Assembly (NCBI RefSeq): GCF_000969885.1
Contig: NZ_CP009501.1
Span: 2,680,908 to 2,744,907, forward strand
Direction of reading: 5' to 3'
DNA: 64,000 nt
From: Methanosarcina thermophila TM-1
GTDB lineage: Archaea; Halobacteriota; Methanosarcinia; Methanosarcinales; Methanosarcinaceae
In this document: positions 14,449 through 14,639 of the stretch, piece after piece
Numbering within the stretch: position 1 is the first letter of the stretch
How the letters are laid out: each line of letters begins with the position of its first letter
Notes under the pieces: generated by a model
Seen by the model: the letters and a program-made list of their open reading frames with translations, nothing else
Databases searched by the model: none
Told to the model about the DNA's origin: nothing
Position numbers and translations under genes: made by a program

Positions 14449-14639
14449 TGGGGCTGGTGAGATTCGAACTCACGATCGACGGGTATCTCCGAACAACTGC
14501 TAGTACAGTTTCTGGTGAGCATCTATCAGTGCTCCAACGGCTCCTCATTGTCCTGCCCCGTCGGGAAAGACTCGGTAGACCCGTTGTTCATCATTTATCC
14601 GCTGGAGCCCATCGCCTTACCAGACTAGGCCACAGCCCC
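14449..14639 (-). tRNA. tRNA-Trp (CCA) with a 117-nt intron
   Basis: Exon 1 is 14639-14602 and exon 2 is 14484-14449, giving a 74-nt tRNA. Acceptor GGGGCTG pairs with CAGCCCC and the discriminator is A; no full CCA is encoded (CC then T). The D arm has GCC/GGC, the T arm is GTGAG-TTCGAAT-CTCAC. The anticodon stem is ATGGG/CCCGT with loop CTCCAGA, so the anticodon CCA lies at 14603-14605. The intron is at the canonical 37/38 site and forms a bulge-helix-bulge: CTCC pairs GGAG, with 3-nt bulges AG^C and AT^A. TATA-like sequence lies near 14668-14681. Confidence 0.95.
14485..14601 (-). ncRNA. Box C/D guide RNA within the tRNA-Trp intron
   Basis: The 117-nt intron carries a C box ATGATGA (14588-14594), D' box CCGA (14572-14575), C' box ATGAGGA (14542-14548) and D box CTGA (14526-14529). 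Both guide segments are exactly 12 nt. The D guide pairs for 10 bp (one G-T) with the exon 1/intron junction and places position 5 opposite C34. The D' guide pairs for 8 bp with positions 36-43 of the spliced tRNA and places position 5 opposite C39. Self-targeting of positions 34 and 39 by a tRNA-Trp intron is established in haloarchaea, where position 39 is U. Confidence 0.9.

Follow-up and report, generated by a model that had tools for sequence, protein, structure and literature searches.

The closest described relatives of this locus are archaeal tRNA introns that guide the modification of their own tRNA. The intron of Haloferax volcanii pre-tRNA-Trp guides the formation of Cm34 and Um39, as far as this is set out in three later accounts (PMC4090602, PMC11408192, PMC7714728), which cite Clouet d'Orval 2001, Singh 2004 and Joardar 2008 for the primary work. 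Deletion of the Haloferax intron abolishes both methylations, and the cells are viable (PMC11408192). The action of the intron is sequential and has been described as trans-acting (PMC7994747), and a circular form of the intron occurs in vivo (PMC7714728). In the table of one review, tRNA-Trp is entered with intron-guided 'Cm34 and Um39 (or Cm39)' (PMC6313347). By its description, the Pyrococcus tRNA-Trp intron sR50 is likewise an intron-encoded guide for residues C34 and 39 of its own tRNA (PMC7994747). The predicted methylation of C39 in P. furiosus tRNA-Trp was undetected by mass spectrometry (PMC7668247). Intron-guided Cm34 and Nm39 in tRNA-Trp are already published (PMC6313347, PMC4090602, PMC11408192), and so is their sequential formation in trans. 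For the timing of such guidance relative to splicing, and for its action in cis or in trans, the Haloferax work is the main source.

The window, i.e. the whole 64,000-nucleotide stretch of Methanosarcina thermophila TM-1 DNA that was analysed, carries on its minus strand (14639-14449) a tRNA-Trp(CCA) gene with a 117-nt intron after G37. The 5' exon (tRNA positions 1-37, 14602-14639) and the 3' exon (positions 38-73, 14449-14484) were placed by an Rfam match (RF00005) and a cloverleaf parse, with C34 at 14605, G37 at 14602 and C39 at 14483. ARAGORN, when run on the locus, missed the gene, which the Rfam tRNA model detects with 48.6 bits. The limits of the intron (14485-14601) follow from the cloverleaf and from a bulge-helix-bulge motif read from the sequence, in which CUCC (32-35) pairs with GGAG (14487-14490) and the bulges are AGC and AUA. 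The Rfam sR3 model (RF01133) matches the intron with 56.9 bits (E 5e-13, span 14524-14598, gathering cut-off 41), and the position of the intron at site 37/38 of tRNA-Trp(CCA), together with the bulge-helix-bulge, is that of the sR3 family. The last dinucleotide of the intron is AU (14485-14486), and it determines whether the D' guide can fit the precursor. A stem-loop, AACUG/CAGUU (14495-14510), lies towards the 3' end of the intron and is seen in the sequence and in the minimum-energy fold. A tRNA-fitting pattern found no extra intronless tRNA-Trp gene in the genome, its matches being not tRNA-like, and another sR3 match in the genome scores 21 bits, under the cut-off, with no tRNA-Trp parsed nearby. 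Of L7Ae, Nop5 and fibrillarin, the gene looked for was that of fibrillarin, and it was found in the genome.

The C box AUGAUGA (14588-14594), which aligns to the sR3 consensus, is followed by the D' guide ACAACGGGUCUA (14576-14587) and the D' box CCGA (14572-14575). Then come a 22-nt hairpin with a GACG loop (14550-14571), the C' box AUGAGGA (14542-14548), the D guide GCCGUUGGAGCA (14530-14541) and the D box CUGA (14526-14529); the minus strand carries them all. The spacer from C to D' and that from C' to D each measure exactly 12 nt, the archaeal guide length. The earlier note had described two exact 12-nt guides; this holds for the spacers, but the pairing itself extends over 8 bp for D' and 10 bp for D. 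The order of the boxes, the guide spacing and the sequences of both guides are those of RF01133. The locus differs from the family model in its D'-C' hairpin of about 20 nt, which the model lacks, and in its D' box, which is non-canonical and one base off the CUGA of the model and of most relatives. Among 75 distinct segments, a small number of which are of another type, most pairs of the hairpin stem co-vary. In Methanosarcinia (loci L274-L303) this hairpin has a stem of up to 9 bp and a GACG loop, whereas the haloarchaeal hairpin has the conserved loop CUGAUCA.

About 270 intron-bearing tRNA-Trp loci from Halobacteriota, Thermoplasmatota and Methanobacteriota were parsed, giving 207 distinct precursors. 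The pattern of boxes and guides is present in 187 of the 394 genomes of the phylum, and the reversed pattern, used as a control on the same 394 genomes, has zero matches. Both guides change with the tRNA and intron that carry them, as the earlier note had demanded of true guides. Nucleotide 39 and D' guide position +5 are C-G in 173 precursors, U-A in 21 and U-G in three, a joint change that speaks strongly for a D' guide that keeps pace with its tRNA. The three intron nucleotides next to the 5' splice site and the opposing part of the D guide are CGG/CCG in 159 precursors, AGG/CCU in 24, UUA/UAA in 8 and UUG/CAA in 8, with UGG/CCA (2) and UGA/UCA (1) as the rarer pairs. It was correctly noticed before that position 39 is C here and U in haloarchaea: H. 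volcanii has U39 and a guide +5 A, M. thermophila TM-1 has C39 and a guide +5 G. C39 is no peculiarity of this species, however, because it is the majority state outside haloarchaea (173 of 207 precursors) and is present in the literature.

Nucleotides +2 to +11 of the D guide form 10 bp, one of them G:U, with G31-G37 and intron nucleotides 1-3 (CGG). The duplex spans the 5' junction of exon and intron, with +5 opposite C34, in the sR3 register, as had been claimed from the sequence of this locus and as in H. volcanii, the D guide of which crosses the same junction to the same target. Shuffled guides reached this match in 1.5e-4 of 200,000 trials. Since the pairing of the D guide continues past the 5' splice site into the intron, recognition of C34 must occur in the unspliced precursor, and the co-variation of intron nucleotides 1-3 with the D guide is strong evidence that this guide has been selected for its fit to that precursor. 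The introns of Methanobacteriales (L107, L319-L328) have kept the C34 guide, with UUG in the intron and CAA in the guide. Their D' guide (e.g. AAAACGCGUAGU) misfits position 39 and may have acquired a different RNA as its target.

The D' guide of M. thermophila TM-1 pairs through nucleotides +2 to +9 with A36-U43 of the ligated tRNA, forming 8 bp across the exon-exon junction. Its +5 lies on C39, in the sR3 register for position 39, which is also the position at which the H. volcanii D' guide is aimed. This match, described in the earlier note, was reached by shuffled guides in 1.5e-5 of 200,000 trials, and none of the trials gave the D and D' matches jointly. In the precursor the intron ends with AU rather than AG, and +3 of the guide, a C, is opposite U, intron nucleotide -1. 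Because of this mismatch the full complementarity to the unspliced 3' junction that characterizes the Haloferax type is absent. The D' guide retains 6 contiguous base pairs with the precursor, with a calculated energy of -9.5 kcal/mol compared to -14.3 kcal/mol for the spliced tRNA. The assignment of this guide, and of its relatives, to a spliced or a precursor fit assumes canonical cleavage in the two 3-nt bulges, G37|C and U|A38, placed from the sequence. On the spliced tRNA the D and D' guides share A36-G37, whereas their sites on the precursor are separate; the guides thus compete for these two nucleotides and cannot act jointly on one spliced molecule. An early m1G37 would block the pairing of D' +3 in spliced tRNA.

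The sR3 match, the four boxes and the co-variation bear out the earlier claim that the intron is a box C/D guide for its own tRNA. Very probably it is an sR3-type dual guide that targets C34 on the precursor. Together with L7Ae, Nop5 and fibrillarin, the intron would direct 2'-O-methylation of C34 by the D guide and of C39 by the D' guide. C34 would be methylated on the unspliced precursor. C39 would be methylated after splicing and in trans, by a particle assembled on the intron after its excision, probably as a circle. For M. thermophila TM-1, both methylations, the sequence in which they occur and the action in trans are predictions. Because the ligated tRNA is the best fit for the D' guide, methylation of C39 after splicing is the likeliest course, and it is proposed tentatively, its chance being a little short of even. 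The earlier note had proposed just such an order, C34 first and C39 after ligation. The energies at this locus agree with it, but most D' guides of relatives fit both forms of the tRNA and some fit the precursor only. Comparison across relatives has shown that the guides change with their targets, and has altered the argument for the order.

The fit was judged by comparing D' guide nucleotides +2 and +3 with A36-G37 (spliced) or with the terminal dinucleotide of the intron (unspliced). In 134 of the 207 distinct precursors the intron ends with AG, which is identical to A36-G37, so that the D' guide fits the precursor and the spliced tRNA alike. Thirty precursors, from haloarchaea and six Methanosarcina, combine an AU end with a guide +3 A and fit the precursor only, as do four DHVE2 sequences with a UG end and a guide +2 A. 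The combination of an AU end with a guide +3 C, which fits only the ligated tRNA, was found in 18 distinct precursors; these represent about 21 Methanosarcina species, including M. thermophila TM-1, and three Methanotrichaceae. The calculated duplex energies for one precursor-fit Methanosarcina species are -10.1 kcal/mol spliced and -12.5 kcal/mol unspliced, and those for one haloarchaeon are -10.5 and -12.9 kcal/mol, respectively.

Haloarchaeal introns have the same AU end as that of M. thermophila TM-1, but their +3 A fits the final intron nucleotide of the precursor, whereas the +3 C found here fits G37 of the spliced tRNA. Singh et al. reportedly found that C34 of Haloferax is methylated before U39 and that both events precede removal of the intron, and both Haloferax duplexes are said by Clouet d'Orval et al. 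to span exon-intron junctions. These accounts appear to match the haloarchaeal guides and to disagree with the D' guide of M. thermophila TM-1. A literature search, the coverage of which did not extend to the main papers, found no treatment of precursor-fit versus spliced-fit guides; the variant may therefore have been noticed earlier.

Within Methanosarcina the state of the guide is linked to that of the D' box: every spliced-fit species has CCGA and every precursor-fit species has CUGA. The three spliced-fit Methanotrichaceae carry the canonical CUGA. Outside +3, all Methanosarcina share one 12-nt D' guide sequence, while the adjoining hairpin varies. The spliced-fit state is found in the deepest-branching Methanosarcina, and the sister genus has an AG intron end with a guide C. 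Trees were calculated from the mcr and EF-2 regions, since the synteny of the DNA flanking the tRNA gene was insufficient for use as a species tree. Precursor-fit Methanosarcina arise at least twice on the EF-2-region tree and more often on the mcr tree; the count of guide switches differs between the trees (5 for mcr, 3 for EF-2), their species sets being partly different, and recombination could lower it. Two Methanosarcina with an AG end and a guide C branch beside a precursor-fit (AU, A) species, as if both bases had reverted together. Two readings suit the Methanosarcina pattern, a change of substrate or a D' site that decayed and was repaired, and the intact CUGA of the spliced-fit Methanotrichaceae modestly favours the change of substrate.

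C39 might instead be methylated on the unspliced precursor, as in Haloferax, with the single +3 C-U mismatch tolerated. This is rather unlikely. Six contiguous pairs, the target included, persist in the precursor, and elsewhere the guide tracks the end of the intron: AU goes with +3 A in haloarchaea and six Methanosarcina, UG goes with +2 A in DHVE2, and the closest relatives of two AG/C Methanosarcina are AU/A species. The precursor-only fits in these three groups count against methylation after ligation, as does the undetected methylation in P. furiosus (PMC7668247). The mismatch, however, costs about 5 kcal/mol and is kept by about 21 Methanosarcina species, the deepest branch included, and by three Methanotrichaceae. 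That the deepest Methanosarcina are spliced-fit while the D' guide is otherwise invariant counts for methylation after ligation, and so does the separate occurrence of the spliced-only fit, with a canonical CUGA, in the three Methanotrichaceae.

It is unlikely, too, that the D' site has merely weakened in this clade, with little or no methylation at position 39 and guidance of C34 alone maintained. The constant company of the spliced-only guide and the weaker D' box CCGA in Methanosarcina speaks for such weakening and against methylation of C39 after ligation, and other lineages point the same way: in Methanobacteriales the C34 guide is retained while the D' guide misfits position 39, and Methanimicrococcus-like species show an additional D' mismatch. 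The intron is, moreover, dispensable in Haloferax (PMC11408192). Against a decaying site stands a 12-nt D' guide that is unchanged across the genus except at +3, next to a hairpin that varies; CCGA, too, serves haloarchaea as a D' or D box. Lastly, the resemblance could be due to chance, or the guides could be aimed solely at other targets such as rRNA, which is possible for some tRNA-intron C/D RNAs and would suit the misfit of the Methanobacteriales D' guide. This is very improbable, given that shuffled guides nearly never match and that the reversed pattern is absent, and as a sole explanation it is refuted by the 207 precursors, in which both guides co-vary with the tRNA and intron that carry them.

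Methylation of C39 after ligation has a wider form, which is more doubtful than not: the position-39 guide would now be specific for ligated tRNA in this Methanosarcina clade and, separately, in some Methanotrichaceae, splicing would separate the modification of C34 from that of C39, and in sister species a single base change, accompanied by a changed D' box, would bring the reaction back to the precursor. If this is true, Methanosarcina is a natural experiment in which a modification is switched between precursor and product, and an excised intron guides in trans on its own spliced product. Between related Methanosarcina a single guide base differs, and its two states predict opposite outcomes, which makes a single genus sufficient for testing whether modification or splicing comes first. 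As a locus, this tRNA-Trp gene is unremarkable for the known sR3 family, with one genuine variant at the level of sequence.

Some gut Methanosarcinaceae and Methanimicrococcus (L042, L089; L074, L099, L104) have extra D' mismatches near position 39 to both forms of the tRNA, which suggests that their position-39 site has been lost. One Methanosarcina assembly (L243, G112:C107) contains a second tRNA-Trp intron of the Methanocorpusculum type on a separate contig, which is likely to be contamination. The two guides of M. thermophila TM-1 (14576-14587 and 14530-14541) show partial mutual complementarity, between CAACGG and CCGUUG. The haloarchaeal guides (L184-L213) are likewise complementary, ACUCCAGA with UCUGGAGU, and equal stability was reached in at most 1 of 500 shuffles. 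Such pairing could keep the guides closed until the target binds.
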